Of a DNA stretch of 41,168 nt, positions 3 through 38,563 are shown in pieces. The stretch lies in NCBI GenBank assembly GCA_029934475.1, contig JAOZMC010000009.1, positions 1-41,168 on the forward strand. The letters are read 5' to 3'. The first letter of the stretch is position 1. Each line of letters begins with the position of its first letter. The notes beneath the pieces are model-generated. The model had not been told where the DNA came from, searched no databases, and was given only the letters and a program-made list of their open reading frames with translations. The position numbers and the translations under genes were made by a program. The DNA comes from Arcobacteraceae bacterium (GTDB lineage Bacteria; Campylobacterota; Campylobacteria; Campylobacterales; Arcobacteraceae).

Positions 3-515
3 TATAGTTTTAAGCCCCAAATCCAAGCACGAAACAGGCTCATAATCAAGATAATCCTATATACAGGCATAAGAGTAAGCGAAGCTATAAATATCAATAT
101 TAAAGATATCATAGAAAAAGATGGCTATCTGACTATAAAAATAGTCGGCAAAGGCAACAAACATCGCACAGTGCTACTGAAACTTGCCCACATAAAAAAC
201 GACTTAAAGATGTGGCTAGATGCTAGAACTTGCCATAGCGATGCCCTATTTTGCACCAAAAGCGGAAGTCGCTTGTTGCAGTCGTATGTTAGTAGATGTG
301 TAGAAAATATATTGAGAAGTTGTGGTATCAAAAAGGAGAAAAATGGAGCCCATATGCTTCGCCATAGCTTTGCTACACTTCTATACAACAAAAGCCAAGA
401 CCTGATACTAGTCCAAGAGGCTCTAGGTCACTCATCGCTTGATACATCAAAGATATACACACACTTTGACAATGACAAGCTAAAGACAGCTGCTAATATG
501 ATGGATGATATGTGA
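3..515 (+). CDS. Tyrosine recombinase, C-terminal catalytic domain (5' end outside window)
   Basis: The frame is open from the window edge, so the N-terminal SAM-like DNA-binding domain lies outside. The visible part carries the whole catalytic set of Xer/phage-integrase recombinases in order: Arg in GIRVSE (around 75), Lys in the beta-hairpin GKGNKH (around 150), HMLRHS (around 350), the second His in LGHSS (around 430) and the nucleophile Tyr in IYTHF (around 460). These residues cut and rejoin DNA through a 3'-phosphotyrosine. All catalytic residues are present, so the gene looks functional if the N-terminus is intact. It sits beside a foreign-looking cassette (945-2281) and a putative mobile-element end at 541, which suggests an integrase of a mobile element. 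A chromosomal XerH-type enzyme is the alternative and cannot be excluded. Confidence 0.85.
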   Translation, partial: YSFKPQIQARNRLIIKIILYTGIRVSEAININIKDIIEKDGYLTIKIVGKGNKHRTVLLKLAHIKNDLKMWLDARTCHSDALFCTKSGSRLLQSYVSRCVENILRSCGIKKEKNGAHMLRHSFATLLYNKSQDLILVQEALGHSSLDTSKIYTHFDNDKLKTAANMMDDM

Positions 516-944
516 TATGAGTGGTGAGTGTTAAGTTTTAAGGTCACCTCTAAAAACCTCTATTGCTCATACCCAAACTCTATCTTTTTTTACAACCCAG
601 TTTGCCTTCAATCCAGAGTTTAGATATAAACAAAAGCAATCAAAAGTAGTGAATAGGAGTTTTGCTTTGAAAAAAATTTCTGTGAAAAGCTACTTGTATA
701 GAGGCTTTAAGTGTGTTCTATATCAAGTATTTATGGATACAGAGAATGACGCCAATGGATACACTAGAAGGTGTTTTGAGTAAAAAAAAGATAACAAAGA
801 GAAACTTAAAGAAAATTTAGATAAACTGAATAATAAAAAACAAGAATATATTAGGTAGCTATAAGATGAGACACAATAAGTCATAAATAGTTGTATCCAG
901 AGACGACCTAAAGTATTTAATTACAAAAGGAGAGAAACATTCAA
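516..944. other. Gene-poor stretch with recombination scar
   Basis: No convincing gene. A short frame from a TTG at 667 to a TAA at 783 (38 codons, starting LKKISVKSYLYRGFKC) continues open upstream without a start and matches nothing I recognise, so it may be a relic. The stretch begins with the dispersed GGTCACCTC motif at 541-563. It ends with a good ribosome-binding site (aaaggag, around 926) that belongs to the decayed MetY-like gene starting at 945. Confidence 0.5.
541..563 (+). repeat. Dispersed GGTCACCTCTAAAAACCTC motif, copy 1
   Basis: AGGTCACCTCTAAAAACC followed by TCTAT lies directly downstream of the recombinase stop. The same motif, or a GGTCGCC variant, occurs at 5087-5106, on the other strand at 31407-31428, and truncated at 36946-36958. 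All copies are intergenic and similarity stops abruptly beyond the motif. This is what single ends left behind by a lost insertion sequence would look like; that origin is inference. Confidence 0.6.
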
Positions 945-1685
945 ATGAAAGATTCAACATTAGCATTACATGGTGGATACTACAAAGATTATAACAAATC
1001 TTTATCAGTACCATTACATCAGACAATATCTTATGAGTTTAATAGTTCATACGAGGCATCAAATTAATTTGAAATGAAAGAAGCTGGGAATATTTACACA
1101 AGATTAACAAATCCTACAGTAAAAATATTTGAAGAAAAAATTGCATTACTAGAAAATGGTGAATCAGCAATTGCTACAGCTAGTGGTATGTCAGCTATAT
1201 TTTTTACAATTTTAAATGTTGCGAGACTAGGGGATAATATTATTGTTGCCAAACAAGTATATGGAGGTACCTCTACACTAACAGAACATACATTAAAAGA
1301 TTTTGGAATTGTAACGTATACCTTTGATGTGAACAAACCAAATGAAATAAAAGAATTAATTACAGACAAAACAAAACTAATATTATTTGAAACAATATCA
1401 AATCCAACAACTACTATTGCTAATTTCTATAAAATAATATCCATTGCGAATAAATTCAATATTCTAACTTGTGCTGACAATACACTTGCCACTCCAATTT
1501 TAATCAAACCACTTAGCATTGGTAATAGTTTATCCATTATTACGCATCCTGCAAGCACAACCCATTCGCAAATAAAACAAAGTGATTTGAAAAAATATGG
1601 AATTACTCCTTCTTTACTTAGATTGAGCATAGGATTAGAAAGTCCAATAGATTTAATTAATTCACTAAAAGAAGTTTTAAAATGA
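945..1685 (+). pseudogene. Decayed MetY-type O-acetylhomoserine sulfhydrylase / methionine gamma-lyase
   Basis: The frame starts MKDSTLALHGGYYKDYN and reads as a Cys/Met-metabolism PLP enzyme of the MetY class. An in-frame TAA at 1065-1067 replaces what is probably a Leu codon (SN-stop-FEMKEAGNIY). After it the family sequence resumes with GNIYTRLTNPT, then the cofactor-domain signatures GMSAI and FETISNP and the ADNTLATP motif. After KPLSIGNS the protein jumps straight to the C-terminal IITHPASTTHSQ. About 170-200 residues are missing in between, including the PLP-binding Lys. Total reading length is 246 codons against roughly 420 for the family. Two independent lesions make this a pseudogene. 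Its ribosome-binding site (aaaggag) is intact. Base composition is AT-richer than the core genes. Its 3' end overlaps the LysE-family start by 4 bases. Confidence 0.88.
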
Positions 1686-2281
1686 TTGAAATATTTTTAA
1701 AAATATTACCTGTAACTATTTTTATTATTGCAACAAGTATAACACCAGGACCAAATAATATTATGTTAGCAACATCTGGAGCAAATGTTGGATATAAAAA
1801 ATCATTATCGCTTTTATTTGGTATAGCTTTTGGATTTTTATTTTTTTTACTACTAACATCATTTGGATTCAATTTATTATTTATGAAGTATCCTAAATTG
1901 TATTTTATATTTAAAATTATAGGTACTTTGTATTTATTATATTTAGCATTTTCCATTATCACAAGTGCTTTAAACAACGAAAGCGTTAAAATTTTAAATT
2001 TTAAGAACGCTATTATTTTTCAGTTTATAAACCCAAAAGTGTGGGGTATGGCAATTACATCAATTACTTCTTTTTCTTTATCAGGTAATGATTATTTAAC
2101 ATCAGCTATTATGATATCATTTTGGTTTATAGTAATATATATACCTTGTGGATTAATTTGGATTTTATTTGGTTCTTTATTAAAAAATAAATTATTAAAA
2201 AATCAAAAAAAATATAAACAATTTAATTTATTAATGGGATTGCTCTTAATTTTAACGGCTTGCTTAATATTTGTAAATTAA
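1682..2281 (+). CDS. LysE/RhtB-family amino-acid exporter
   Basis: A 199-residue hydrophobic protein with about six membrane segments and the family signature TPGPNNIMLATSGANVG near residues 22-38. LysE/RhtB proteins export amino acids or their derivatives (Lys, Arg, homoserine, threonine, cysteine) across the inner membrane. The length is normal and no lesion is seen. The start ATG overlaps the stop of the upstream MetY-like pseudogene (ATGA), so the two were once a coupled pair; a sulfur-amino-acid enzyme next to an exporter fits export of Met/Cys precursors, but the substrate is not readable from the sequence. Codon use (TTA, ATT, AAA) is AT-richer than in the surrounding core genes and supports horizontal acquisition of 945-2281 as one piece. 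Confidence 0.85.
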   Translation: MIEIFLKILPVTIFIIATSITPGPNNIMLATSGANVGYKKSLSLLFGIAFGFLFFLLLTSFGFNLLFMKYPKLYFIFKIIGTLYLLYLAFSIITSALNNESVKILNFKNAIIFQFINPKVWGMAITSITSFSLSGNDYLTSAIMISFWFIVIYIPCGLIWILFGSLLKNKLLKNQKKYKQFNLLMGLLLILTACLIFVN

Positions 2282-2446
2282 GTATTAAGCACTAAATGTA
2301 GTAATTTTAGAGATAGTTGATTGTATTTTTGTTGATTGTGATATGATAGTAAATTTTGATTAACTAGTTAGTCAGTGTATATAAAACAATCAAGTCGCAA
2401 TAAACTCTACATCAAAACTACAATATCAAAACTCAAAACTTAGCAC

Positions 2447-4030
2447 TCAATGCCCTGCTTCCAAAAACTCCTCATAAGACCCACGAAAATCAACTATAGT
2501 TTTATCTGCATTTAGTTTGATAATCCTATTTGCATAAGCATCAAGTAGCTCTCTATCGTGTGATACCACTATACAATGTCCCTCATATTCATGCAAAGCC
2601 TCACCCAAAGCGATGATAGCTTCTAGGTCAAGGTGATTTGTAGGTTCATCTAGTAGCAAGAAGTTTCGTTTTTCTAGCATAATCTTGCTCAACATCATAC
2701 GGTGTTTTTCTCCACCAGAGCATTTGATGACCGAATTTTCTTGTTCATCGCCACTAAACAGCATACGACCCAGACAGTTTCGTATCTCACTAATATCGGC
2801 ATCTCTATCAAAATCTCTCAGCCAGTTGTATAAAGTTATATCCCCTTTTATCTTATCTGTGGTATTTTGCGGAAAGTAGCTGACCGTAGCCGTAGCACCC
2901 CAGCTGACTGTTCCGCTGTCTGGTTTTATGTTATCCATCAGTATCTCGCACAATGTAGTCTTGCCTACACCATTTTCACCTATCAAGGCTATCTTGTCGC
3001 CCTTTTCTACGGTTAGACTTAAATTATCCAATACTTTTTCATCATAAGACTTGCAGATATTTTTGAAGCTAAGTATCTCTTTGCTTATAGGTTTTTCTTG
3101 TCTAAATACTATAGATGGGTCTCGTCTGCTACTTACTTTGATAGACTGGATATCAAGTTTTTCTAACTGTTTTTGTCTGCTGGTGGCTTGTTTGGCTTTG
3201 GAAGCATTGGCACTAAATCGTCTTACAAAATCCTCTAACTGCTCTTTTTCCTTGAGTTTTTTCTCTCTGTCTATCCTGTTTTGTTTGGCTATGACGGTAG
3301 ATGCTATATACCAGTCGTCATAGTTGCCACTAAACTCTCGTATAGTTTTGAAGTCTACATCTAGTATGTTGGTGCAAACAGCATTTAAAAAGTGTCTGTC
3401 ATGTGATATCACTACCATAGTGCCTTCGTGTCGTTTGAGCTGGTTTTCTAGCCACGATATAGTCTCCATATCCAGGTTGTTGGTCGGTTCATCAAGAAAC
3501 AATATCTCAGGCCGCGGAAACAATACTTGAGCTAATAGCACCTTAAATTTATCGCCACCTGTTATAGTGCTCATAAGTTCGCCGTGTTGCGAAGCGGCAA
3601 ACCCTAGCGACTCCAGTATTTTGGTGATCTTCACATCGCACTCATATGTGGGGTCCTCCTCTACACAGACTATCTCAAGCTCTCCTAACTCTTCACCTAT
3701 TTGGTCTGTATATTCTACCATATATAGCTCCTCTTTTTTCTTGATAGCATCATATAGTCGCCTGTTGCCATATAGCACGGTGTCAGCTAGAGTAAAATCC
3801 TCAAATGCAAACTGATTTTGCGACAGAGAGCCTACCTTTTTGCCTCCTGCAAACTGCACCTCTCCACTTGTAATATCCTCACTTCCTATGAGCATATTTA
3901 GAAATGTAGTCTTGCCAGCACCGTTGGCACCTATTAGCCCATATCGTTTACCTTCATCCAGTTTTAAGTTGATATTTTCAAATAATACTCTTGCTCCAAA
4001 ACTCTTTTTGAGATTGATTGTTTGAACCAT
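2447..4030 (-). CDS. ABC-F family ATPase (YbiT/EttA-like ribosome-associated factor)
   Basis: 527 residues with two ABC cassettes and no membrane domain. Walker A motifs are GANGAGKT (about residue 35) and GENGVGKT (about 350). Signature motifs are the variant TGGDKFK in the first cassette and SGGEKHR in the second. Walker B regions read LFLDEPTNNLD and LLLDEPTNHLD. The linker between the cassettes (about 240-310) is Lys/Glu-rich, as expected for the ABC-F P-site tRNA interaction motif region. ABC-F proteins act on the ribosome E site; the length and linker fit the YbiT branch. The start is ATG at 4030. The gene diverges from the exonuclease gene with about 55 bases between them. Which ABC-F subfamily, and any antibiotic-protection role, cannot be settled here. 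Confidence 0.92.
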   Translation of the reverse strand: MVQTINLKKSFGARVLFENINLKLDEGKRYGLIGANGAGKTTFLNMLIGSEDITSGEVQFAGGKKVGSLSQNQFAFEDFTLADTVLYGNRRLYDAIKKKEELYMVEYTDQIGEELGELEIVCVEEDPTYECDVKITKILESLGFAASQHGELMSTITGGDKFKVLLAQVLFPRPEILFLDEPTNNLDMETISWLENQLKRHEGTMVVISHDRHFLNAVCTNILDVDFKTIREFSGNYDDWYIASTVIAKQNRIDREKKLKEKEQLEDFVRRFSANASKAKQATSRQKQLEKLDIQSIKVSSRRDPSIVFRQEKPISKEILSFKNICKSYDEKVLDNLSLTVEKGDKIALIGENGVGKTTLCEILMDNIKPDSGTVSWGATATVSYFPQNTTDKIKGDITLYNWLRDFDRDADISEIRNCLGRMLFSGDEQENSVIKCSGGEKHRMMLSKIMLEKRNFLLLDEPTNHLDLEAIIALGEALHEYEGHCIVVSHDRELLDAYANRIIKLNADKTIVDFRGSYEEFLEAGH

Positions 4031-4054
4031 TGTTTACCTTTTATAATTTTTGGG

Positions 4055-4060
4055 TATTAT
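4055..4060 (+). promoter_or_regulatory. -10 element of exonuclease promoter (TTGGGTATTAT form)
   Basis: TATTAT preceded by a T-run and TGGG, 25 bases before the exonuclease ATG. The same arrangement (T-rich tract, TTTGG, TATTAT/TATAAT) recurs before aroE (15671-15680), before the G-tract leader (30381-30394) and before the small gene at 31528. It matches the known T-rich, -35-poor promoters of Campylobacterota. Confidence 0.65.
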
Positions 4061-4084
4061 ACCGAAAAATGTTTAAGGAAACCT

Positions 4085-5065
4085 ATGGCACACTATATTT
4101 TATTTGACACGGAGACTACAGGAGTAGCAAAACAGGACAGGGTGATACAAGTAGGAGCTATGATAATAGACGGCAAAAACAGCACAAAAGTCCATGACGA
4201 GCTGTGTTCTGTGGATATAGATATACCTGTAGATGCTATGATGGTGCACGGTATCACTCCAGATAAGCTTGTGGGTAAGCCAAAGTTTATAGATACAAAC
4301 TTTTTCAAAGAGCTCAATAGTTTAAACACAAATGACAACTATCTTATAGCTCACAATATCAAGTTTGACTTAAGTATGATAGCCAAAGAGGGTTTTCAAA
4401 ACAGGCTCAAACTCATAGATACTTTTCGTTGTGCTAGACATCTGCTACCAAACGAAAACAAACACAAGCTGCAGTATCTGCGGTATAGTCTGGAGCTATA
4501 CAAAGAGGAGCAAACAGAAGCTGCCAAACATAGCATAGAGGTCAAAGCCCACGATGCTATAGGCGATGTGCTAGTCATGAAGCTGTTGTTGTCGAAGCTT
4601 GTAGCTATCGTGCGAGAGAAATATGTAGGCGAAAATCCTATGGAAAAGTTGGTTCAGCTTTCAAATACTCCTGCTACTATACACAAGATAAACTTCGGCA
4701 AACATAGTGGCAAGACAATACAAGATATATACGTTATAGATAGATCGTATCTGCGATGGCTTGTAGAAAATACAGATGATGAGGATATGATACACACGAT
4801 AAAAGCTCTAAACAGAGGCGAAAATGACAAAAAAGAATACAAACCTTATAATAATGATAAAAAACCATATAAAAAACCGGTAAATAGTGGCACAAACAAG
4901 CCCAAGCTCATAGAGGTTATGCCATTTGGCAAATATAAAGGCGAGAAGCTAGTGGATATATGTGACAAAAATATGGAATACATAGACTGGATGCTAGAAA
5001 ACACAGACAATGAAAACTTCAAAAAAGAGCTAGAATATAGTGTAGATAAACTTATCAACGAATAG
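4085..5065 (+). CDS. DnaQ-like 3'-5' exonuclease with two C-terminal ExoX/DUF3820-like modules
   Basis: 326 residues from the ATG at 4085, chosen because it follows taaggaa and begins MAHYILFDTETTG at the family start; an in-frame ATG at 4022 would add 21 unlikely residues. Exo I is DTET (residues 8-11), Exo II is HNIKFD (about 95-100) and Exo III is HDAIGD (about 158-163). This is a complete DEDDh catalytic set for single-strand 3'-5' hydrolysis. The C-terminal third holds two copies of a small module: NFGKHSGK...DRSYLRWLVENTDD (about 210-250) and MPFGKYKG...NMEYIDWMLENTDN (about 280-320). They resemble the C-terminal module of exodeoxyribonuclease X-like proteins and are separated by a Lys/Asn/Pro-rich linker. 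This points to a repair or processing nuclease rather than the Pol III epsilon subunit. Confidence 0.85.
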   Translation: MAHYILFDTETTGVAKQDRVIQVGAMIIDGKNSTKVHDELCSVDIDIPVDAMMVHGITPDKLVGKPKFIDTNFFKELNSLNTNDNYLIAHNIKFDLSMIAKEGFQNRLKLIDTFRCARHLLPNENKHKLQYLRYSLELYKEEQTEAAKHSIEVKAHDAIGDVLVMKLLLSKLVAIVREKYVGENPMEKLVQLSNTPATIHKINFGKHSGKTIQDIYVIDRSYLRWLVENTDDEDMIHTIKALNRGENDKKEYKPYNNDKKPYKKPVNSGTNKPKLIEVMPFGKYKGEKLVDICDKNMEYIDWMLENTDNENFKKELEYSVDKLINE

Positions 5066-5086
5066 AAAAATTTGAAAGACACTTAT

Positions 5087-5106
5087 GGTCACCTCTAAAA
5101 ACCTAT
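5087..5106 (+). repeat. Dispersed GGTCACCTCTAAAAACCT motif, copy 2
   Basis: GGTCACCTCTAAAAACCTAT, matching 541-563 over 18 bases, lies 21 bases after the exonuclease stop in the gap before the convergent HTH gene. Confidence 0.6.
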
Positions 5107-5157
5107 ACAGATATCTTGTGGTAATATGCATCGTTATATTATCAAGCAACAATATCC

Positions 5158-5889
5158 TCATAGTTTAGTTATCTTGTAAATTACCTTGCCTTTTATGGTG
5201 TGGTGAATATCTTTTAACAGTTGGATATTGTTAAACTCTTTTAGCCCATTTATGCTATAGCACTGCTCAAATGGTAGATATACAATATCCACAAATATAT
5301 ATTTATGTGGATATTGTAGATAATAGAATCCATCGCCTGTATATTTATCCACATTTGTATCTATTATGTGGATATTGTCTCCTATTTTGTCCCATTTGAT
5401 ATTTTGTTTGCTCTTAAGGGGTATCAACGATATATCAAAAGCAAAGCTATCTGCTGTGCTGTCGTTGATGTTTTGTAGATTTATATGAGATATACCTGTG
5501 TCTATAGTCGCCCTATTCTTTCGTGCTATATCATCTAGGCTATTTTTGGGTTCTTGTGAACTTTCTTGTGATGTTTGTATATAACTGTCTCTATAGTGGC
5601 TTTTTTGAGGCTTTGTGTGGTTATAGTCTATGTTCACCTCACTAATAGGCATATTTGGACTGTTTTGCGGCTCTATGAGACTGTGTTGTGATATATTAGC
5701 TGTAGTGCTATGCTTTGTGGAGCTGTTTGCTAGTAGCTGGGCTATCTTGTCTATGTGTTTTCGTGGGATACTGCCTCTACTAAACCAGTTGTTAACTGTA
5801 GTTAAGTTGGTATCTAGTATCTCTGCCAGTTTTGTTTGACTTATGCCCATATCGTGTAAGGACCTTTTTATCTCCGCTATATCACTCAT
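5158..5889 (-). CDS. CI-like HTH regulator with inactive S24-type C-terminus
   Basis: 243 residues. Residues 1-55 form a Cro/CI-type helix-turn-helix (ISQTKLAEILDTNLTTVNNW followed by SRGSIPRKHID). Residues 55-140 are a Ser/Thr/Asn/Gln-rich linker. Residues 145-243 align by eye with the distal half of the LexA/CI S24 fold (IHIIDTNVDKYTGDGFYYL...IKGKVIYKI). I see neither the catalytic Ser (GDSM) nor the Lys (usual VKR is FVD here), so self-cleavage is not expected; this comparison is from memory of the family. The gene starts at ATG 5889, right beside a cluster of TGTGGATAT/TTATCCACA nonamers, and contains a second cluster inside its C-terminal coding half. Autoregulation through these sites is possible but not shown. 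A phage-derived repressor is the likeliest origin. Confidence 0.7.
   Translation of the reverse strand: MSDIAEIKRSLHDMGISQTKLAEILDTNLTTVNNWFSRGSIPRKHIDKIAQLLANSSTKHSTTANISQHSLIEPQNSPNMPISEVNIDYNHTKPQKSHYRDSYIQTSQESSQEPKNSLDDIARKNRATIDTGISHINLQNINDSTADSFAFDISLIPLKSKQNIKWDKIGDNIHIIDTNVDKYTGDGFYYLQYPHKYIFVDIVYLPFEQCYSINGLKEFNNIQLLKDIHHTIKGKVIYKITKL
5285..5375. promoter_or_regulatory. DnaA-box-like nonamer cluster A (4 sites, inside the HTH gene)
   Basis: ATATCCACA 5285-5293, TGTGGATAT 5306-5314, TTATCCACA 5345-5353 and TGTGGATAT 5367-5375, in alternating orientation. TTATCCACA is the classical DnaA R-box. I found only two other WTATCCACA sites in the rest of the window (27490-27498 and 32830-32838). 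Confidence 0.5.
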
Positions 5890-6241
5890 ATATCCACCTT
5901 TTATATATATTATATTTTTTTGTGGATTATATCATAATAATGTTAAACAAACTCCACTAAATCTATAATGTGGATATATTTATCTTTTGTGGATATTATA
6001 ATATCTAATATCCACATATTATCCACATTGGCATTGCCCTGTTATTGTTATACAAAATAGACACTTGACGATCTTGTCCTGTATTGTCTTATCGCCAGAT
6101 TTTGATAACCCACTGCCCTACTCTCTAGTTACTGGAGGCTAGTTTGCTAGCGATCAATTTGCTAGAGATTGGAGATTAGAATATTTATCTATTGTTGAAA
6201 ATTGATTGGTGAGTTTCTGTATTTTTTTGCTAATTGGTTAT
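5890..6241. promoter_or_regulatory. Regulatory gap with nonamer cluster B (5969-6027)
   Basis: Upstream region of the HTH gene. It holds TGTGGATAT at 5969-5977 and 5988-5996, ATATCCACA at 6008-6016 and a perfect TTATCCACA at 6019-6027, plus near matches at 5890-5898 (ATATCCACC) and 5921-5929 (TGTGGATTA). The stretch 5899-5940 is almost pure A/T. The cluster could be the operator of the adjacent repressor or a DnaA-binding/origin-like region. From 6030 to 6241 I see no gene and no clear element. Confidence 0.5.
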
Positions 6242-6835
6242 TTATCTAATCTCTAGTTTGTCTGGTCGCACATACCAATACAAACACAACGACACCAAAG
6301 CCCCCAAAGTATCTGCTAACATATCTTTTTGGGCATCCCATATATCGCCTTGAGAACCTAGAAACTCTATACCAGTGTCTCCGCCATCTATCACAGCATA
6401 TGCCCACTCTATGATCTCATAGCCACATGCCACACTCATGATGAAAAACAGAGCAAAAAATGACCCTATCTTTATAGAAGTATATCGTTTTTTGGTCAAA
6501 AACTCAAGCATAGCATAAGCATAAAACCCTATAGAAAAGTGCCCTACTCTGTCAAAGTGATTTCGCTCGAAGTCAAAAAGATTTGTCACAAAATCAAAAG
6601 GAACACTAGCAAATGTGTAGTATCCGCCTATAGTGTGCCAAACCATCCAAAACATCATCAAGCTATATGATATATTTGAGAAGCGAAACTTGTCATGTGT
6701 GAAAACTAGTGCTAGATATATGCAGACTACTGGCACTATCTCCACTATCCACACAGCTCTGTCGTGTGGGTCTATAGCCAGAACCATAAAAAATAGCAAA
6801 AATCCTACAGCTAATATATGTGGGTAATATCTCAT
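6242..6835 (-). CDS. YjdF/DUF2238-family inner-membrane protein
   Basis: 197 residues with about six predicted membrane helices. The pattern fits the DUF2238 (YjdF) family: an N-terminal hydrophobic pair, HTIGGYYTFASVPF, then FERNHFDRVGHFSIGF, the acidic EIIEWAYAV stretch and GSQGDIWDAQKDMLADTLGA near the C-terminus. The conserved polar motifs inside membrane regions suggest a catalytic or transport role, but the family function is unknown. The gene is alone on its strand between the HTH gene's regulatory gap and the cytochrome c terminator. The ATG at 6835 gives the normal family N-terminus. Confidence 0.8.
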   Translation of the reverse strand: MRYYPHILAVGFLLFFMVLAIDPHDRAVWIVEIVPVVCIYLALVFTHDKFRFSNISYSLMMFWMVWHTIGGYYTFASVPFDFVTNLFDFERNHFDRVGHFSIGFYAYAMLEFLTKKRYTSIKIGSFFALFFIMSVACGYEIIEWAYAVIDGGDTGIEFLGSQGDIWDAQKDMLADTLGALVSLCLYWYVRPDKLEIR

Positions 6836-7085
6836 GTTGTATCCTTTTTTGTATTATATCATCTATAGATTATTTTATCTATTGTCTGGCTGTGAGTTGG
6901 ACTATTTGATATAAACTTTTATTTTGTGGTATATCTGGTGGTTATCCTCTCAGCTTGGAATCGATACACAACAAACAAGCAAAATAACACACAAAAGCCA
7001 CAAGGATTAAGCTCATCTATTGATTTGGTTTTTGGATTATTATTTGAAAAGGGATTGAATATACTGTTGTATTGAATTTTTTTTG
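6836..7085. other. Intergenic stretch without recognised feature
   Basis: AT-rich spacer between the start of the YjdF-like gene and the terminator of the cytochrome gene. No frame, hairpin or repeat in it convinces me. Confidence 0.5.
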
Positions 7086-26298: not shown

Positions 26299-28976
26299 AG
26301 ACTATCGACTACATCTTGACATCTGTGACATATACCACCTGTCTGCTTGGCTCTATATTTCCAACATCTCTCGCACTTTTGTTTGGAGGCAAAATATATC
26401 TCAAATTTATCGCCACTGACTTCAAAACTAGCTACCACTTTGTCCTCTTTGTGGTGGATAACTTTACTCACTACAAACCAGTCCTCCGCTTCTGCTGGGC
26501 TTAATATATCTAGTTGTGGGCTTTTGCTATATATCACTAGCTCCAAAGTAGACTTGATGGTTTTGTCCTTTTTTAGGCTCTCTATAGTTTCGTTGAAACT
26601 GTTTTTTGCCTCTAACATATAGTTTTCATCTATGCTACAATCCACTTGTGGTAGCTCGTATTTTTCTATATCAAACAGACTTTTGACACCACTATCTAGT
26701 ATCTCGTCTGTGTGTCCTAATATCTCGTCCATAGTGTATGTAAGTATGGGGGAAAGTAGTTGCATAGTAGCTTTGGTGATCATGAGCATGGCAGTCTGTG
26801 AGTTTGTCCTACTTTTACTTCTCTTTTTGTCGCAATACAGTTTGTCTTTGCACACATCTAGATATATATTTGATAGATCTGCTACTAAAAAGTTGTTAAG
26901 CTTGTTGATACCTTTGCTAAACTCATATGTAGCGAAGTCTTTATCTATCTCGTCATACACCTTTTTGGTCTTTGCTAGTATCCACTTGTCTATCTGTCCT
27001 AGTTCATCTACTGGCGATAGTCTCTCAAGATCGCTGATATTTGATAGCAAAAACCGCAAAGTATTTCGTATTTTTCTATACTGTTCTGCCATCTGTTTAA
27101 GTATTTCATCGCTGATTTTTAGGTCATTTTGGAAGTCGCTCATCGCTACCCAAAGTCGCAAAATCTCTGTGCCGTATTGTTTGATAACTTTGTCAGGAGC
27201 TACTACATTGCCTTTGGATTTGCTCATCTTTTCGCCTTTTGCATCTACCGTAAATCCGTGAGTTAATATACTTTTGTATGGTATTTGCTCGTTTGAGCTA
27301 AGTGAGACTAGCAAGGAGCTTTGAAACCAGCCTCTGTGTTGGTCGTTTCCTTCGAGATACATATCAGCAGGATAGTTTCCTGCATCGTATTTGCCACTTC
27401 GTAGCACTGCCTTTTGGGTGCTACCACTATCAAACCACACATCTAGTATATCTGTAGTTTTTGTCAGGTTCTTTGGGTCAAGACCGCTATGTGGATATAG
27501 TAGCTCCTCTACGCTCATATCCCACCACGCATCTGCTCCATGTGTCTCAAATATCCCAGCTATATGGTCTAGGACTTTTTCGTCCATGACTGGCTCTTTG
27601 GTGGTCTTGTCTACAAAAAATGCTATAGGTACACCCCAGTCTCTTTGACGACTAATACACCAGTCTGGGCGATTTTGGATCATACTTAGCAACCTATTTT
27701 TGCCACTTTTTGGATAAAAATTGACCTTCTGTATAGCATCTAAGGCATTGTCTCGCAGTGTCTTGCCCTCTTTGCCATATGGTTTGTCAAGTGCTATAAA
27801 CCACTGTTTCGTAGCACGATATATCACTGGCTTGTGTGTCCGCCAACAAAACGGATATGAGTGAGTGATATCAACTCTTTTTAGCAAGCTGTCGCCCAGC
27901 AGTTCTAGTATGCCATCGTTTGCTTTAAATATATTGACACCCACAAACTCCTCTGGCAGTAGCTTTTCTTTGATGATAGTCTCATCAAAACATCCGTTGT
28001 CTGCTACAGGCATAAGCATAGCTAGGTCATTTTGTAGTCCTAGCACATAGTCATCTTCGCCGTGTCCTGGAGCTGTATGCACACACCCAGTGCCAGAGCT
28101 AGTCTCTACATGTGAGCCTAGCACTATCTTTGATAGTCGGTCATTTAGTGGATTGATAGCATAGCAGTTTTCTAGCTCTTTTGGGTCTATATCTCCTGCT
28201 ATATCGCCACTGACTATGCCGTCTGCTTTTAGGCTTTCGTATAACTCATATGCCACTATATAGCCGTCCATAGTTCGCACATATTTTGCTTCGCTGTTGA
28301 GTGCTATACCGCTGTTTGCTGGCAAGGTCCACGGAGTGGTCGTCCATATGATGATACTATCGTCTGTCTCTTTTAACCTAAATGCCACATAGATAGATGG
28401 CGAGACTTTATCTTTGTATTCCACTTCCGCTTCAGCTAGAGCTGTTTTTGCCGCCCACGACCAAAACACTGGTTTGCTTCGCTGGATTAGTAGCCCATTT
28501 TTCGCTATGGCGACTAACTCTTTGTATATATTTGCTTCAAAGTGGTTTTCCATAGTGAGATACGGCTTGTCCCAGTCACATATGACTCCTAGAGCTTTGA
28601 ACTGCTCTTTTTGTATCTGGATATATTTTGATGCGTGGTCACGGCATAGCTGTCGCACTGTGCTTTTTGGCAACTCTTTTTTCTTTTGTCCGCCTATCTT
28701 TTCTTCTACTTTTTGTTCTATCGGCAAACCGTGACAATCCCACCCAGGGGTAAATCGCACAGCCTTGCCGTCAAAGTAGTGGTATTTTGTGACTATATCT
28801 TTGAGTATTTTATTTAAAGCATGTCCTATATGTATATCGCCGTTTGCATACGGAGGTCCATCGTGAAATGTCCATATATCGCGGTTTGCTCTGTTTTGTT
28901 TCATCTTTTCATATACTTTGGTCTCAAACCATTGTTTGTATTTGAGCGGTTCGTTGTGTGGCAAGTTTCCTCGCAT
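26295..28976 (-). CDS. ileS: Isoleucyl-tRNA synthetase, 5' end shifted
   Basis: 893 residues from the ATG at 28976 (MRGNLPHNEP). Class I signatures are HIGHALN (about residue 51) and EKMSKSKGN (about 584). The CP1 editing domain and the C-terminal zinc finger (CERCWKY...CHRC) are present. IleRS proteins normally start MDYKDT, about 15 residues before MRGNLP. Here an ATG reading MDYKDT exists at 29020-29018 behind a strong Shine-Dalgarno (aaaaaggac) but is 44 bases, not 45, from the MRGN codon: one base is missing and that start is out of frame. In-frame upstream codons (DTLSKTSFP) have no ATG, GTG or TTG before a stop. Translation therefore starts at 28976 without a good ribosome-binding site, or depends on frameshifting, or the base loss is a sequencing error. 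Confidence 0.93.
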   Translation of the reverse strand: MRGNLPHNEPLKYKQWFETKVYEKMKQNRANRDIWTFHDGPPYANGDIHIGHALNKILKDIVTKYHYFDGKAVRFTPGWDCHGLPIEQKVEEKIGGQKKKELPKSTVRQLCRDHASKYIQIQKEQFKALGVICDWDKPYLTMENHFEANIYKELVAIAKNGLLIQRSKPVFWSWAAKTALAEAEVEYKDKVSPSIYVAFRLKETDDSIIIWTTTPWTLPANSGIALNSEAKYVRTMDGYIVAYELYESLKADGIVSGDIAGDIDPKELENCYAINPLNDRLSKIVLGSHVETSSGTGCVHTAPGHGEDDYVLGLQNDLAMLMPVADNGCFDETIIKEKLLPEEFVGVNIFKANDGILELLGDSLLKRVDITHSYPFCWRTHKPVIYRATKQWFIALDKPYGKEGKTLRDNALDAIQKVNFYPKSGKNRLLSMIQNRPDWCISRQRDWGVPIAFFVDKTTKEPVMDEKVLDHIAGIFETHGADAWWDMSVEELLYPHSGLDPKNLTKTTDILDVWFDSGSTQKAVLRSGKYDAGNYPADMYLEGNDQHRGWFQSSLLVSLSSNEQIPYKSILTHGFTVDAKGEKMSKSKGNVVAPDKVIKQYGTEILRLWVAMSDFQNDLKISDEILKQMAEQYRKIRNTLRFLLSNISDLERLSPVDELGQIDKWILAKTKKVYDEIDKDFATYEFSKGINKLNNFLVADLSNIYLDVCKDKLYCDKKRSKSRTNSQTAMLMITKATMQLLSPILTYTMDEILGHTDEILDSGVKSLFDIEKYELPQVDCSIDENYMLEAKNSFNETIESLKKDKTIKSTLELVIYSKSPQLDILSPAEAEDWFVVSKVIHHKEDKVVASFEVSGDKFEIYFASKQKCERCWKYRAKQTGGICHRCQDVVDSL

Positions 28977-29091
28977 AGGGAAGCTCGTCTTTGATAAAGT
29001 ATCGTGTCTTTGTAGTCCATCTTTGTCCTTTTTGGTTATTGTATCTAAATAATATAAAATTTTATAAATATCTTGAAACTTTGTCTGTTTT
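28915..29091. repeat. 177-bp direct repeat, ileS-side copy
   Basis: Covers the first codons of ileS and its upstream region. Identical base for base to 29885-30061, offset 970. Includes the MDYKDT start region and the missing base. Confidence 0.95.
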
Positions 29092-29173
29092 GTCTAAATC
29101 CATAAGTTAACCTCCAAATTGTCCTATGGTTATGTGTCTTTGAGATATTGTAAATGTTGATAATACACAGAGC

Positions 29174-29557
29174 TTAAAAATTTGTCAAGCAGTGCTTGTG
29201 GTGGTTTATAAGCCCTACCATCTCTATCAAGGCATTTTTTAGCAGATAGAAATCTTTGTTTATAGTATTCCACAAAAGTTTTTCATCTGTACCTCTATAG
29301 TCATGTGATATTTTATCTCTAATACCTGCTATATTTTTCCAGTTAATATCTGAGTTTATGCTCTCTTTGAGCGATGTTTCGATTTTCTTTGATTCTTCTC
29401 CTATAGCTACAAACATAGTGATGACAGCATTTAGGTCTTTTTGTTGATTTGCAAATATAAAAGCGACAGCATTATCATGGTCTTGTGTATATATCCATGT
29501 TTTTTCGATACGCTCAAGCATAGTTAAAATATAAACTAAATTTTTCTCATCATACAT
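29174..29557 (-). CDS. hepT: HepT-like HEPN toxin
   Basis: 127 residues from the ATG at 29557, which lies 8-9 bases after aagga; an in-frame ATG at 29578 would be inside the upstream gene and lacks such a site. The HEPN RNase motif RX4HXY is present as RDKISHDY (Arg80, His85, Tyr87). In MNT-HEPN modules HepT is a ribonuclease toxin whose Tyr is AMPylated by the partner MntA, which neutralises it. The start overlaps the mntA stop by 8 bases, in the antitoxin-first order usual for the system. The pair is the only content between two 177-bp repeats of the ileS 5' region. Confidence 0.88.
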   Translation of the reverse strand: MYDEKNLVYILTMLERIEKTWIYTQDHDNAVAFIFANQQKDLNAVITMFVAIGEESKKIETSLKESINSDINWKNIAGIRDKISHDYRGTDEKLLWNTINKDFYLLKNALIEMVGLINHHKHCLTNF

Positions 29558-29849
29558 ATATGAAATCCTTTTTTGCATAATATTTGATGATAGGATTCAT
29601 AGAGTTTAGATTTACAAAATCCAACTTGTCTATATCTAGCTCCTTTTTCAAATTTTCCAAAAACTCCGCCCACTCTAGCAATCCCATAGAAAATCTATCA
29701 TCGGTAGTATAAAATATATCTACATCACTATTGGCAGTCGCTTCGTCTCTAGCATAGCTACCATACAGCCCCAGTGTAGATATGCCGTGCTGTCGCTTGA
29801 AACTATCCTTTTTTGATCTTAAAAATTTTATAATATTGTTTTTATTCAT
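29550..29849 (-). CDS. mntA: MntA-like nucleotidyltransferase antitoxin
   Basis: 99 residues of the minimal nucleotidyltransferase fold. Gly30-Ser31 (GLYGSYARDEA), Asp42 and Asp44 (NSDVDIFY) and a third carboxylate at Asp77 (DKLDFV) make up the complete GS-x10-DxD active site. By family knowledge MntA transfers AMP from ATP to the HepT Tyr in RX4HXY. Both active sites are intact, so the module looks functional. The gene is followed directly by hepT. Its promoter must lie in the short stretch before 29885 or within the upstream repeat copy. Confidence 0.9.
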   Translation of the reverse strand: MNKNNIIKFLRSKKDSFKRQHGISTLGLYGSYARDEATANSDVDIFYTTDDRFSMGLLEWAEFLENLKKELDIDKLDFVNLNSMNPIIKYYAKKDFIYV

Positions 29850-29884
29850 ATCTGTTAGTTAGATCTATTTTTAATCAGTTACAC

Positions 29885-30061
29885 ACTTTGGTCTCAAACC
29901 ATTGTTTGTATTTGAGCGGTTCGTTGTGTGGCAAGTTTCCTCGCATAGGGAAGCTCGTCTTTGATAAAGTATCGTGTCTTTGTAGTCCATCTTTGTCCTT
30001 TTTGGTTATTGTATCTAAATAATATAAAATTTTATAAATATCTTGAAACTTTGTCTGTTTT
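29885..30061. repeat. 177-bp direct repeat, upstream copy (relic of ileS 5' end)
   Basis: Perfect copy of 28915-29091. On the minus strand it reads out of the repeat as DTLSKTSFPMRGNLPHNEP and stops soon after the repeat ends. It probably still holds the original ileS promoter-proximal context, since unique upstream sequence continues beyond 30061. Confidence 0.95.
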
Positions 30062-30127
30062 ATAAATATCTTGGAAAATTTGAAAAGATTAAGTTTTTTT
30101 GGATAAGATAACACAAGGAGATGGAAA

Positions 30128-30229: not shown

Positions 30230-30388
30230 CCGATATTTATCTGCTTTTGTGATATTTATATGCTTTAGCGATGTCTATATGCTTTAACTTATGCTATTGT
30301 TTATAGGATTTTTTAGAACTTAAAATTTATTAGCATTAAAATATGGCAAAAATCTCGCAAAATTTTGTCAACATTAAGTTTTTTTGGA

Positions 30389-30394
30389 TATTAT
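30389..30394 (+). promoter_or_regulatory. -10 element of the G-tract leader operon
   Basis: TATTAT after TTAAGTTTTTTTGGA (30374 on), the same form as the other promoters in the window. It would start transcription near 30401, ahead of the leader frame at 30467. The 160 bases before it (30230-30374) hold no gene I can support. Confidence 0.6.
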
Positions 30395-30466
30395 GACCTA
30401 GAAGCTAAACTACTTCATAAGGTTTATGTTTCTAGGGCTTGCCCAAAACCACGAAAAGGAGAGATT

Positions 30467-30541
30467 ATGATACACCGACCAACAGTGCCAAACACAAGTG
30501 CGGCCACACCTGCGGGGGGGGGGACAATAGTCGCTTCCTAA
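30467..30541 (+). CDS. Leader frame with a G10 tract (probable phase-variable switch)
   Basis: A 24-codon frame (MIHRPTVPNTSAATPAGGGT...) with a strong Shine-Dalgarno (aaaaggag). It runs into ten consecutive G at 30514-30523. With ten G it ends at TAA 30541. With eleven or eight G the frame would continue through residues DNSRFLKPKRKN and on to a TGA at 30619-30621, overlapping the ATG of the next gene (ATGA). With nine G it would stop at once. Homopolymeric G tracts are the standard slipped-strand phase-variation device of Campylobacterota. I infer that tract length toggles translational coupling into the downstream pair; the leader peptide itself may have no function. Confidence 0.55.
   Translation: MIHRPTVPNTSAATPAGGGTIVAS
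30514..30523 (+). repeat. G10 homopolymer
   Basis: Ten consecutive G in an AT-rich genome. It is the only G run of this kind that I saw in the window, and it sits within a translated leader just upstream of two exported proteins. Confidence 0.95.
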
Positions 30542-30617
30542 AACCCAAGAGAAAAAACCTTTCTCAAACTTTTTTGCTACTTTTTAGCAACAATTCAACA
30601 CAAAACAAGGATATATT

Positions 30618-30914
30618 ATGAAAAATAATACAAACAAGCGGTCTGCGATGACACAGATGATGATGGTATTGCTAGTAGCAGTATCGTTTATGTTTAGTAG
30701 CATAGTAGCAAACGAGACAAAAGATGGCACGAGTTTCTCTGTGCACAACTTGACAGACAAAAAAGTCAGCTTTTATATAGATTTTGATGAATTTGAGATA
30801 GATAAAAACCAAGCAGTCACAAAAAATTGCGAAGCAGGAGATATCATCCAGATAGTATATCAGGAACGATACGAAAACTTCACATGCGGACAAACTTGGA
30901 GGATAGAATTATGA
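30618..30914 (+). CDS. Small exported protein, unknown function
   Basis: 98 residues. Basic start (KNNTNKR), hydrophobic core (MMMVLLVAVSFMFSSIVA) and a likely cleavage near residue 31. The mature part of about 66 residues is acidic and beta-rich (FSVHNLTDKKVSFYIDFDEF), with two cysteines, Cys71 and Cys90, that could form a disulfide. It has its own aagga ribosome-binding site, but the preceding leader frame in its alternative phase ends by overlapping its ATG. Its stop overlaps the next gene's ATG. I do not recognise the family. Confidence 0.7.
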   Translation: MKNNTNKRSAMTQMMMVLLVAVSFMFSSIVANETKDGTSFSVHNLTDKKVSFYIDFDEFEIDKNQAVTKNCEAGDIIQIVYQERYENFTCGQTWRIEL

Positions 30915-31189
30915 GAATAGTATTATTTGTATTTATAACAGGTTTGTTGTTTGTAGGTTGTGAAGAGAAAAAAGATGATAAATACACAACATGTGAGATA
31001 GTTAGCTCTACAGCTTTATTGGCTGAAAATAGAGAAAGAGATGAAAATCAATGTTGGACAGGCGGAGTTCAGACAGATCAAGATAGGGCATTAACTTGGT
31101 GTAGAGGAAAAGCTAGTGACTATTGTAATGCCGAGTATTTAATATGCGACCAAGCTTTGGGCGTTAGAGTTTCAAACGATGGTTGCTAG
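30911..31189 (+). CDS. Small cysteine-rich lipoprotein, unknown function
   Basis: 92 residues from the ATG at 30911, which overlaps the upstream stop (ATGA); an in-frame ATG at 30827 lies inside the neighbour and would bury the signal. The signal MRIVLFVFITGLLFVGC ends in a lipobox, so Cys17 should be lipidated. The mature part has six further Cys (28, 48, 64, 72, 79, 92), enough for three disulfides, in a compact charged domain. It forms a pair with the upstream exported protein. Exposure on the envelope together with an upstream G tract would suit antigenic or phage-receptor variation, but this is only inference. Confidence 0.75.
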   Translation: MRIVLFVFITGLLFVGCEEKKDDKYTTCEIVSSTALLAENRERDENQCWTGGVQTDQDRALTWCRGKASDYCNAEYLICDQALGVRVSNDGC

Positions 31190-31527
31190 TCTATATAGAC
31201 AGTAGCGACACCTGCCATAGTCGCCACCGACTATTTTTCTGTGTCAAGACCAACCTCTTGACACAGGATATACAAAAGCCCATAACTCACAGAAACTTTT
31301 TTGACTTGTTCCTGTCGTCCAGATAATATGAAATAACTACTTTTACAGGAAATATTTTTTATTATCGCGAAAATGTTTCCTGTGAAAACTGCTTATTCTA
31401 TGAACTATAGAGGTTTTTAGAGGCGACATTTGTTTTGTAGTCTCGCTAAATTTTCAAATTACACAAAAAATTGTGCCACTATAAGCTTTTTTGGGTATAA
31501 TATAGCAAATAATTTCAAAGGTTAAAT
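31190..31527. other. Intergenic stretch with an 11-bp inverted repeat and a mobile-element-like motif
   Basis: No gene. CTGTGTCAAGA (31239-31249) - CCAACC - TCTTGACACAG (31256-31266) is a perfect 11-bp hairpin without a following T-run, so it is a weak terminator candidate for the lipoprotein operon. The dispersed motif is at 31407-31428 and the next gene's -10 (TATAAT) is at 31496-31501. Confidence 0.6.
31407..31428 (-). repeat. Dispersed GTCGCCTCTAAAAACCTCTAT motif, copy 3
   Basis: Read on the minus strand this is TGTCGCCTCTAAAAACCTCT followed by AT, differing from copy 1 mainly by G for A in GTCGCC. It stands alone between the lipoprotein operon and the next promoter. Confidence 0.6.
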
Positions 31528-31761
31528 ATGCCAAGAATAGATGAAAAAGAGATATTGGAGATAGAAGCACTCAAGCAAAATCTAGCGATAAATATGAAAA
31601 GATTTGAAATAGATAGAGTCCAATGGGACAAAGAACATGAGATACGAAACAAAAAGGCTTTTTATGAAGCATTTAGACTAGCATTTTATGGTGTAGCAGT
31701 GGGGCTTGGTGGCACATTTGCTATAGCAAAGACGATAAGTCTGCTAGGTTGGGTTGGGTAG
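31528..31761 (+). CDS. Small protein with coiled-coil-like N-terminus and C-terminal membrane helix
   Basis: 77 residues, unknown function. Residues 1-48 are charged and helical (MPRIDEKEILEIEALKQNLA...) and residues 52-74 (FYGVAVGLGGTFAIAKTISLLGW) form one Gly-rich membrane segment. A clear promoter (TTTTTTGGGTATAAT, ending 31501) and a ribosome-binding site (aaaggtt) precede it. The layout resembles tail-anchored phage or TA-associated membrane proteins, though I recognise no family. It converges on miaA about 100 bases further on. Confidence 0.6.
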   Translation: MPRIDEKEILEIEALKQNLAINMKRFEIDRVQWDKEHEIRNKKAFYEAFRLAFYGVAVGLGGTFAIAKTISLLGWVG

Positions 31762-36942: not shown

Positions 36943-36987
36943 CTATTTAGAGGTGACCTTTAGTTTATATGGCTTTGGTCTTGTCAT
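36943..36987 (-). pseudogene. Truncated zinc-ribbon ORF joined to the dispersed motif
   Basis: Minus-strand ATG at 36987 reads MTRPKPYKLKVTSK and stops. Its first ten codons match the start of the zinc-ribbon gene at 40316-40501 (MTKPKPYKVRCEKC). The following codons are supplied by the GGTCACCTCTAAA motif (36946-36958), which therefore cut the gene at codon ten. Confidence 0.65.
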
Positions 36988-36993
36988 CATATT

Positions 36994-37080
36994 TTAATCC
37001 CATCGTCCAACAACTCTCGCTCTTGATGAGATTATGAGGTGCTTTATGTTATTGATTGGATTGTTATCTGTCATATTCAT
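36994..37080 (-). pseudogene. yhcG start-end scar, left copy
   Basis: MNMTDNNPINNIKHLIISSR is the N-terminus of the YhcG-like gene at 39522-40202, followed directly by ARVVGRWD, which comes from the last bases of that gene read in another frame. A deletion between two GAGCGAG-like sites has removed everything in between. Stops at TAA. Confidence 0.7.
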
Positions 37081-37294
37081 ACGGTAGTGTCGCAAATAAC
37101 TTGTCTATAGTGTCGTCTGTTTGTTTTTGAGATAATATCTCTATACGACCATCCATGACATCTTGTCGTATGTTTTCCAACCTCTTTTTTCTTTTGTGAA
37201 AACAGATATCGGTGTCGTGTGTCATCGTGTCTTTTGGATTTGTAGTTTTTTGGATGCTACTTGTCACATCCCATCTTGTCATCAAAAAACTCAA
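37064..37294 (-). CDS. 76-residue protein downstream of MazE-like antitoxin (left copy)
   Basis: 76 codons from an in-frame ATG at 37294; the start MTRWDVTSSIQK at 37282 is equally possible, and both lie inside the mazE-like gene. The first half (SIQKTTNPKDTMTHDTDICF) looks like out-of-frame neighbour sequence. The second half (KRLENIRQDVMDGRIEILSQKQ, ending LFATLPYEYDR) is acidic-basic helical and recalls the C-terminus of ribbon-helix-helix or ParD-type antitoxins. It does not resemble MazF, the toxin expected at this place. Its stop overlaps the start of the yhcG scar. Coding status is uncertain. Confidence 0.45.
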   Translation of the reverse strand: MSFLMTRWDVTSSIQKTTNPKDTMTHDTDICFHKRKKRLENIRQDVMDGRIEILSQKQTDDTIDKLFATLPYEYDR

Positions 37295-37538
37295 GAGGCT
37301 TGTCGTAGGCTTCTAAACTTTGTGCTTGATTGTCCTTGTAGGCTACTTTGGGAAGCTTGGCGACTAAGTCATTTATGTCATATTTTGCTCTTTTGTGTCC
37401 TATAGGCTCTAGTATTATCTTTTGATTTTCGACAAATATTTTCATCTTGTCGCCTATAGATAGACCCAGTTTGTCCATAATGCCTCTGACACATACAAAG
37501 CCCTGTTCTTCGCCCATACTTGATATTGTCGCTGTCAT
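37257..37538 (-). CDS. MazE/AbrB-family antitoxin-like protein (left copy)
   Basis: 93 residues. MTATISSMGEEQGFVCVRGI followed by MDKLGLSIGDKMKIFVENQK and IILEPIGHKRAKYDINDLVAKL matches the SpoVT/AbrB swapped-hairpin DNA-binding fold of MazE, including the C-terminal (R)xxYxLxDL toxin-binding segment. Strong Shine-Dalgarno (aaaaaggac). MazE antitoxins normally precede mazF; no MazF-like gene follows, so this is an orphan antitoxin or part of a different pair. Identical to 38526-38807. Confidence 0.8.
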   Translation of the reverse strand: MTATISSMGEEQGFVCVRGIMDKLGLSIGDKMKIFVENQKIILEPIGHKRAKYDINDLVAKLPKVAYKDNQAQSLEAYDKPLEFFDDKMGCDK

Positions 37539-37582
37539 GTTCGTCCTTTTTGGTATTGTATCATAAGTTTATAAATCCAAAT

Positions 37583-37813
37583 CTATTTTTGTGTCTCTTT
37601 GCTTTTTTTCTGTTTTTGAGACAGTATATAGACCACGACCAACAGTATCGATAGATACCAATACTCCACTGCCATATCAAAAACCACTGGCACATAGTTG
37701 TGTAGTAGTATCGCTACAGCTAGAAAGATAAATATCAACAGATATTTGAGTGTCAAAGTAGCTACGATGACTACAAATGCTATCAACAAAAACAACCCTA
37801 TGATTATTTGCAT
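37583..37813 (-). CDS. 76-residue membrane protein (left copy)
   Basis: Two to three membrane helices (MQIIIGLFLLIAFVVIVATL, then LLIFIFLAVAILLHNYV, then YLSILLVVVYILS) and a basic C-terminal tail (QKQKKSKETQK). No family recognised. It lies between the 117-residue gene and the MazE-like gene on the same strand. A hydrophobic toxin controlled by the antitoxin-like neighbour is one idea, not supported by a motif. Identical to 38852-39082. Confidence 0.6.
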   Translation of the reverse strand: MQIIIGLFLLIAFVVIVATLTLKYLLIFIFLAVAILLHNYVPVVFDMAVEYWYLSILLVVVYILSQKQKKSKETQK

Positions 37814-37831
37814 CTTATTTGTCCAGCTTTG

Positions 37832-38185
37832 CTATAGAAATTCATCTATCATACCATGTTTGTCTTGCATAGGTATATTAAACGACTTGCCTACTACAAA
37901 CTGGTTGAGAGCTTTGTCTATCCACTGTTTGTCGCATGTTACCTGCTCTATAACTATAGCTCGTGTCAGTTTGTCTGTGGGGACTATTTTGTATCTTTTT
38001 ATATCTATGTTTGTGTCTGTCGTGTCGCCATGTAGTTGCACTGACACAAATATAGTTTTGTTTGTGTTGTCTATCTTTATTGTGTTGATATGTCCATATT
38101 CGCCTATGAGATGATTTATCAATTTTCTTTTTAGGTCTTTGAAGTTACTATCTGCAAATTTGACTGCCTCCAACAATATACTCAC
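37832..38185 (-). CDS. 117-residue protein of unknown function (left copy)
   Basis: 117 residues from a GTG that overlaps the upstream stop (GTGA) eight bases after aaagga. The sequence (LINHLIGEYGHINTIKIDNT...FVSVQLHGDTTDTNIDIKRY...RAIVIEQVTCDKQWIDKALN) has alternating beta strands and two helices and no cofactor motif. I have the impression of a family of small Campylobacterota proteins with this strand pattern but cannot name it. First intact gene of the duplicated unit. Identical to 39101-39454. Confidence 0.65.
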   Translation of the reverse strand: MSILLEAVKFADSNFKDLKRKLINHLIGEYGHINTIKIDNTNKTIFVSVQLHGDTTDTNIDIKRYKIVPTDKLTRAIVIEQVTCDKQWIDKALNQFVVGKSFNIPMQDKHGMIDEFL

Positions 38186-38349
38186 TGTTGTATTCCTTTT
38201 AAATATCTATCTATATACTTCTCACACTTTAGGGTATATGGTTTTGGTCTTGTCATCGTGTTGTAATCCCATCGTCCAACAACTCTCGCTCTTGATGAGA
38301 TTATGAGGTGCTTTATGTTATTGATTGGATTGTTATCTGTCATATTCAT
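38182..38349 (-). pseudogene. Chimeric scar ORF: yhcG start fused to zinc-ribbon start
   Basis: 55 codons. MNMTDNNPINNIKHLIISSR comes from the YhcG-like N-terminus, ARVVGRWDYNT is the out-of-frame end of that gene, MTRPKPYTLKCEK is the zinc-ribbon N-terminus and YIDRYLKGIQQ is new. This is the junction between the two 1269-bp copies. Its stop overlaps the GTG of the 117-residue gene, so it could act as a translational leader for it. Confidence 0.6.
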
Positions 38350-38563
38350 ACGGTAGTGTCGCAAATAACTTGTCTATAGTGTCGTCTGTTTGTTTTTGAG
38401 ATAATATCTCTATACGACCATCCATGACATCTTGTCGTATGTTTTCCAACCTCTTTTTTCTTTTGTGAAAACAGATATCGGTGTCGTGTGTCATCGTGTC
38501 TTTTGGATTTGTAGTTTTTTGGATGCTACTTGTCACATCCCATCTTGTCATCAAAAAACTCAA
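38333..38563 (-). CDS. 76-residue protein downstream of MazE-like antitoxin (right copy)
   Basis: Identical to 37064-37294, with the same uncertainty of start (38563 or 38551) and of coding status. It ends by overlapping the chimeric scar ORF at 38349. Confidence 0.45.
   Translation of the reverse strand: MSFLMTRWDVTSSIQKTTNPKDTMTHDTDICFHKRKKRLENIRQDVMDGRIEILSQKQTDDTIDKLFATLPYEYDR

Follow-up and report, generated by a model that had tools for sequence, protein, structure and literature searches.

A poly-G leader reading frame as a candidate phase-variable switch for envelope genes in uncultured Arcobacteraceae

Phase variation is mostly surveyed by searching for repeats within genes or promoters. 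In Haemophilus influenzae lex2A/lex2B, a small ORF carrying tetranucleotide repeats lies directly upstream of a surface-glycan gene. In Streptococcus gallolyticus, slippage of a GCAGA repeat sets the length of the leader of pil1 (and pil3), and the ribosome melts a transcription terminator (PMC3894217). In the Bifidobacterium breve pilus locus, G-tract slippage in the first ORF gates the downstream surface-structure genes, for which the authors invoke polarity after an early stop (PMC9187656). The poly-G contingency loci of Campylobacter and Helicobacter are known from a PhasomeIt survey (PMC6321876) and from H. canadensis (PMC2823697). A variable G repeat also lies in the 5'UTR of the envelope-related operon tlpB/hp0102 of H. 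pylori, where pairing with the sRNA RepG gives graded control (PMC8295292).

Here we describe a locus in which a G10 tract lies in a short leader ORF before two small envelope genes. It is found in the window (the whole 41,168-nt stretch of DNA analyzed), which belongs to an uncultured Arcobacteraceae genus with genomes of about 1.3–1.5 Mb, of which four were compared. The design resembles that of Pil1: a short leader with its own Shine-Dalgarno (SD) sequence and a slippage-prone repeat precedes surface genes, and only some phases switch on. Unlike Pil1, with its GCAGA pentanucleotide and its terminator, the window has a mononucleotide G repeat, no credible terminator and a long frame ending in ATGA, which points toward translational coupling. 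Of the two Pil1-type features, the locus thus has the repeat-bearing leader before surface genes and lacks the intrinsic terminator before the first gene, and for this reason we did not file it under the Pil1 attenuators. The window leader would work like the Pil1 leader but probably at the level of translation.

As in Campylobacter and Helicobacter, long G tracts are found at envelope genes of a member of the Campylobacterota, with putative ON/OFF switching by frameshift, and the in-gene type is present in the same genus. The classic tract lies in the switched gene or its promoter, whereas that of the window lies in a separate leader ORF, so that no phase alters the exported protein. Such a separate coupled leader can readily be overlooked, since the gene itself appears intact whatever the phase. 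In B. breve, fusion of the two ORFs yields the first structural gene, whereas the window leader never fuses to the product. The variable G repeat is shared with the RepG-controlled 5'UTR of H. pylori, for which the accessible part of the source (PMC8295292) mentions no leader ORF. If our reading is true, the locus provides a translational equivalent of the Pil1 leader attenuator, and would suggest surface variation by poly-G slippage in an uncultured Arcobacteraceae genus with small genomes.

Leader and transcription unit

The features of the locus, in 5' to 3' order, are:

30365..30394, + strand: sigma70-like promoter of the leader transcript, TTGTCA-18-TATTAT, 10/12 matches
30456..30463, + strand: Shine-Dalgarno sequence of the leader ORF, AAGGAGAG, identical in the orthologue of genome G002
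30467..30541, + strand: leader ORF in the G10, uncoupled phase, 24 codons (ATG 30467–30469, TAA 30539–30541)
30514..30523, + strand: G10 tract, where slipped-strand hypermutation is presumed; the G002 orthologue has 14 G
30524..30621, + strand: leader extension in the coupled phase (11 or 8 G), with its TTATGA end over the next start codon
30607..30611, + strand: Shine-Dalgarno sequence AAGGA of the 98-aa gene, inside the coupled leader
30618..30914, + strand: 98-aa exported protein, with a signal peptide and a mature part with 2 Cys; distant homologue in Vibrio campbellii
30911..31189, + strand: 92-aa Cys-rich lipoprotein, lipobox LFVGC; homologue in V. campbellii (E 5e-6)
31217..31234, + strand: terminator-like hairpin ATAGTCGCCACCGACTAT with a T-run behind it, where the transcription unit would end (terminator scan)

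A sequence-only reading had described a well-initiated leader with G10, its 24 codons, a 51/50-codon alternative, an ATGA overlap with the 98-aa gene and a further overlap with the lipoprotein gene, and this anatomy was borne out when the sequence was re-read. In the present phase, 76 bases lie between the leader stop TAA and ATG 30618 of the 98-aa gene. One G more or two G fewer in the tract lengthens the leader to 51 or 50 codons, ending at TGA 30619–30621, which overlaps ATG 30618 as ATGA. The third phase (+2) gives a 21-codon leader. As expected of a contingency locus, a long homopolymer thus lies inside an SD-led ORF, where indels give 24, 51 and 21 codons. The stop/start overlap of coupled gene pairs occurs twice, between the leader and the 98-aa gene (11/8-G phase) and between the 98-aa gene and the lipoprotein gene, where TGA 30912–30914 overlaps ATG 30911, again as ATGA.

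The promoter candidate is among the best three of 13 promoter-like sites, with 9 expected by chance, and is weak alone. The 5'UTR 3' of it is highly conserved in G002. Together, the promoter-like site and the terminator-like hairpin make the leader and both genes one plausible transcription unit. Rfam gave sub-threshold chance matches alone over the region.

The two proteins had no Pfam, NCBIfam or PDB match, and no homologues were found in 60 and 104 relatives. A first scan of genome contigs gave no match for the 98-aa protein, and the 92-aa lipoprotein had no homologue in viral contigs or phages. A phylum-wide profile search returned the query itself and weak matches, mostly to the signal-peptide/lipobox end alone, which we did not count as relatives. 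AlphaFold2 single-sequence models of both proteins were uninformative (mean pLDDT 46). A 7.3-Gb search detected a homologue of the lipoprotein in V. campbellii (34% identity over 74 aa, E 5e-6). Its immediate upstream neighbour encodes a small exported protein with 23% identity over 60 aa to the 98-aa protein (shuffle P = 0.001). The Vibrio genes have the same order and lie one base apart, without a poly-G leader. The 98-aa/lipoprotein pair is therefore probably a real two-gene unit, with the leader switch present here and absent in Vibrio. Conserved pairing had been the proposed check on an "unrecognized two-protein envelope system", and that claim gains support from the adjacent exported protein and lipoprotein of V. 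campbellii. Our guess is that the pair forms a cell-surface or periplasmic complex.

The orthologue of the leader in G002 also lies downstream of valS. Its tract has 14 G, which is a coupled phase, and the contig stops 52 nt past the tract, all 52 nt being open in the coupled register. The leaders are about 91% identical; the adjacent upstream 5'UTR is well conserved, and the sequence 5' of the promoter has diverged further. All codon changes between the two leaders are non-synonymous, indicating that the peptide itself is under no evident selection and that ribosome transit, rather than the peptide, seems to be kept. Comparing tract length between strains had been suggested as a check on phase variation, and the lengths do differ between these related genomes, with 10 G in the window and 14 G in G002. 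Other orthologous tracts of the genus had 18 vs 12 G, and 9 vs 10 G. On the same G002 contig (C16, positions 363 to 6842; L088), the leader's upstream region is present as two partial copies that enclose about 6.5 kb, with genes for peptide methionine sulfoxide reductase-like and DNA methyltransferase-like proteins, among others.

Recurrence of the leader design in the genus

Poly-G tracts lie mostly at envelope genes in three of the four genomes of the genus. The 1.52-Mb genome of the window has 10 tracts of at least nine G and just 2 of exactly eight, indicating that long tracts are over-represented, as in contingency-locus genomes and slippage-maintained repeats. Two main classes were recognized. 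The fused class (13 loci, counted by hand) has the tract in the N-terminal part of a lipoprotein or outer-membrane protein, or inside a lipoprotein just past the signal peptide. Tracts of the coupled class occupy a leader ORF of their own. Neither class was present in G003, a more distant genome. By hand count, about 13 of 35 tracts in the genus lie less than 500 nt from a contig end, vs about 2 expected, which is compatible with length variation in the population, although only suggestive of it. In genus g10 of family f1, one genome (G088) has 32 tracts of at least nine G, nearly all of them after C and far above the number in the other g10 genomes, which may reflect an extensive poly-G phasome or a family of repeats.

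Six further loci share the design of the window: an SD-ATG leader, a tract of G8 to G11, and one phase whose open frame ends precisely in an ATGA overlap with an exported gene. They comprise at least three unrelated leader families. The coupled leaders other than that of the window are:

Genome G000: C54 (L036)
Genome G001 (Arcobacteraceae MAG JAOZTH01): C26a and C26b (L069, L072), C40 (L074), C77 (L076), C96 (L083)
Genome G002, orthologue of the window leader: C16 (L073)

The overlap with the exported gene is thus present in relatives through the six further leaders, the window's own orthologue being cut off before the ATGA. The genes behind the coupled leaders are unrelated to one another. 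They usually encode surface lipoproteins and, in the window, the 98-aa exported protein plus a lipoprotein. Where the contig continues, the lipoproteins are DUF285/PARCEL proteins of 636–639 aa and 497 aa, a 395-aa orphan and a 251-aa FISUMP protein. Its repetition before unrelated surface lipoproteins looks less like coincidence than like an on/off switch that can be reused. The C26b and C40 leaders are near-identical, and their lipoproteins share the signal peptide and then diverge, which shows the leader behaving as a module.

The ATGA-reaching register was open at all seven testable leaders, the window included. The same register was open in 3 of 13 leaderless poly-G/SD/ATGA 5'UTRs elsewhere in the order, a hand count from the order-wide listing with related copies entered once. 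The leader peptides are not conserved, and the open register is kept even past frame-changing indels: the orthologous leaders C54 (G000) and C26a (G001) differ by such indels past the tract, yet both are open to the same ATGA. For the window alone, an open coupled register has a chance probability of P = 0.19 (dinucleotide shuffle), which makes the single locus unconvincing. Two of the three C26/C40 leaders of G001 are near-identical paralogues, which limits independence to four families; their P values were 0.19, about 0.1, 0.41 and 0.23, with a product of about 0.002, so that significance is reached by the loci jointly and not by the window locus.

Six of the eight leaders are in the coupled phase (P = 0.02 vs an expectation of one third), a number that is optimistic, as paralogy partly pseudo-replicates it. 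The uncoupled leaders are those of the window (G10) and C54. A similar excess was found in the fused class, with 9 of the 13 phase-variable genes ON.

Outside the genus, poly-G-SD-ATGA matches of the order-wide pattern scan were mostly promoter tracts or full-length upstream genes. A possible leader-coupled case is L178 (genome G194, another family of the order), where a G9 tract has an SD-led ATG 27 nt upstream and the frame is open to the ATGA of an ORF named TrbB-like (conjugation ATPase) by eye.

Translational coupling and alternative explanations

Taken together, the recurrence in the genus, the difference in tract length and the excess of coupled phases make phase-variable translational coupling, as first proposed for this locus, the best-supported reading. 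We consider it probable that the leader is phase-variable and gates the envelope genes by translational coupling; slippage, coupling and the difference in expression are what we infer from the sequences. A leader ORF with its own promoter and SD would cross a hypermutable poly-G tract. With 8, 11, 14 or further such numbers of G, ribosomes would stay in frame to the ATGA at the start of the exported protein. There they would terminate and then reinitiate, or melt structure around the downstream SD, and the 98-aa protein would be made. Through the second ATGA overlap the lipoprotein would be made too (ON). Any other phase, such as the present G10, would bring termination at least 76 bases upstream, and the pair would be poorly made (OFF or low). 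The window's downstream gene keeps its own SD AAGGA, so that OFF may be low and not zero. The role of the leader would be ribosome transit, the peptide not being the product, and the same module would drive unrelated exported genes, mostly of surface lipoproteins, elsewhere in the genus.

A possible structural basis for coupling is seen in the C54 family, whose downstream SD is GAGGAG. The C54 leader of G000 carries a 9-nt anti-SD, AACTCCTCT, complementary to AGAGGAGTT at the downstream SD (duplex P = 0.003), and its counterpart in C26a of G001 spans 7 nt (P = 0.03). Ribosomes translating the leader in the coupled phase would traverse this pairing and melt it. By the same duplex test, SD sequestration was significant neither in the window (P = 0.21) nor at the remaining loci, C77 and C96 among them. 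In the window, coupling would therefore rest on reinitiation at the ATGA, and perhaps on a weak AU hairpin that folds over the start codon of the 98-aa gene. Coupling without SD sequestration is the weakest mechanistic step at this locus.

The alternative that survives best, which we still regard as unlikely, is that the leader is a relic or neutral by-product. The genes would then initiate from their own SDs, and the tract would slip without controlling them, the leaders perhaps deriving from fused N-termini. The downstream SDs are indeed good (AAGGA, and GAGGAG in the C54 family), the fused class with its N-terminal tracts occurs in the same genus, and the flank of the window tract matches that of a fused outer-membrane-protein tract in G002 (C13) at 94%. 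Relics would not be expected to keep the register open at seven of seven loci, to have a strongly conserved leader and 5'UTR, or to carry the anti-SD of the C54 family.

Somewhat less probable is an attenuation-like mechanism, in which a ribosome in the longer leader would block a premature transcription terminator as in S. gallolyticus. The phase-variable leader peptide has the same design as Pil1 (PMC3894217), and folding placed a weak hairpin (GAGAAA/TTTCTC, 30549–30565) with a T-run from 30570 between the tract and the gene. However, the terminator scan scored no terminator between the tract and the 98-aa gene (30524–30617), and the hairpin is only partly kept in G002, where one compensatory change is gained and one mismatch is present. 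The model also does not require the exact ATGA endpoints found at all testable loci.

To control through the RNA itself we give the same low probability. A trans-acting sRNA would pair with the G repeat, or folding or stability of the UTR would change, giving graded control in place of a period of three. RepG/tlpB provides a precedent in the related Helicobacter (PMC8295292), and in C26a of G001 the G tract can fold onto the CU-rich anti-SD stretch. The SD-ATG leaders, the open register and its survival of indels would be left unexplained. A change in folding at the window SD between 10 and 11 G was rejected, with 0.50 vs 0.52 of the SD region paired.

A homopolymer assembly or base-calling artefact, with the true tract fixed in length and perhaps already coupled, is very improbable: the assemblies are fragmented, poly-G lengths are error-prone (PMC9187656) and tracts cluster at contig ends, but long tracts occur at several loci in several independent assemblies, a length error would not create the architecture, and population length variation would likewise break contigs at tracts.

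Beyond translational coupling at the single locus, we tentatively propose a genus-wide, copyable cassette, an extension that we hold with less than even confidence. A promoter plus a sequence-indifferent poly-G leader ORF would gate any exported gene that follows by ribosome transit to the ATGA. Some copies would add an anti-SD, three levels of expression could follow from where the leader stops in each phase, and the surface protein would stay unaltered.

Neighbouring features in the window

Upstream of the leader, an MNT nucleotidyltransferase/HepT pair (Pfam PF18765/PF01909 and PF01934) lies on the minus strand at 29174–29849, within 28915–30070. It is flanked by 186-nt direct repeats that are 98% identical and 970 nt apart (28915–29100 and 29885–30070), and that derive from the region upstream of valS. 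At this site, G002 has one repeat copy without the cassette, like an empty site. The cassette is present in G001.

Downstream of the lipoprotein gene, the sequence at 31385–31423, around GCTTATTCTATGAACTATAGAGGTTTTTAGAGGCGACATTTG, recurs many times at about 80–100% identity in G001, G002 and G003, and is a dispersed repeat of the genus. A 77-aa ORF at 31528–31761 (MPRIDEKEILEIEALKQ...) has a C-terminal hydrophobic segment and no family match; several partial DNA copies of it are present in G001 (C32, C105, C70, C85). At 36958–38526 there are two 300-nt direct repeats, 98% identical and 1269 nt apart, and ORFs of 80, 93, 138 and 117 aa are repeated at the same 1269-nt spacing, which suggests a tandem duplication of about 1.27 kb.
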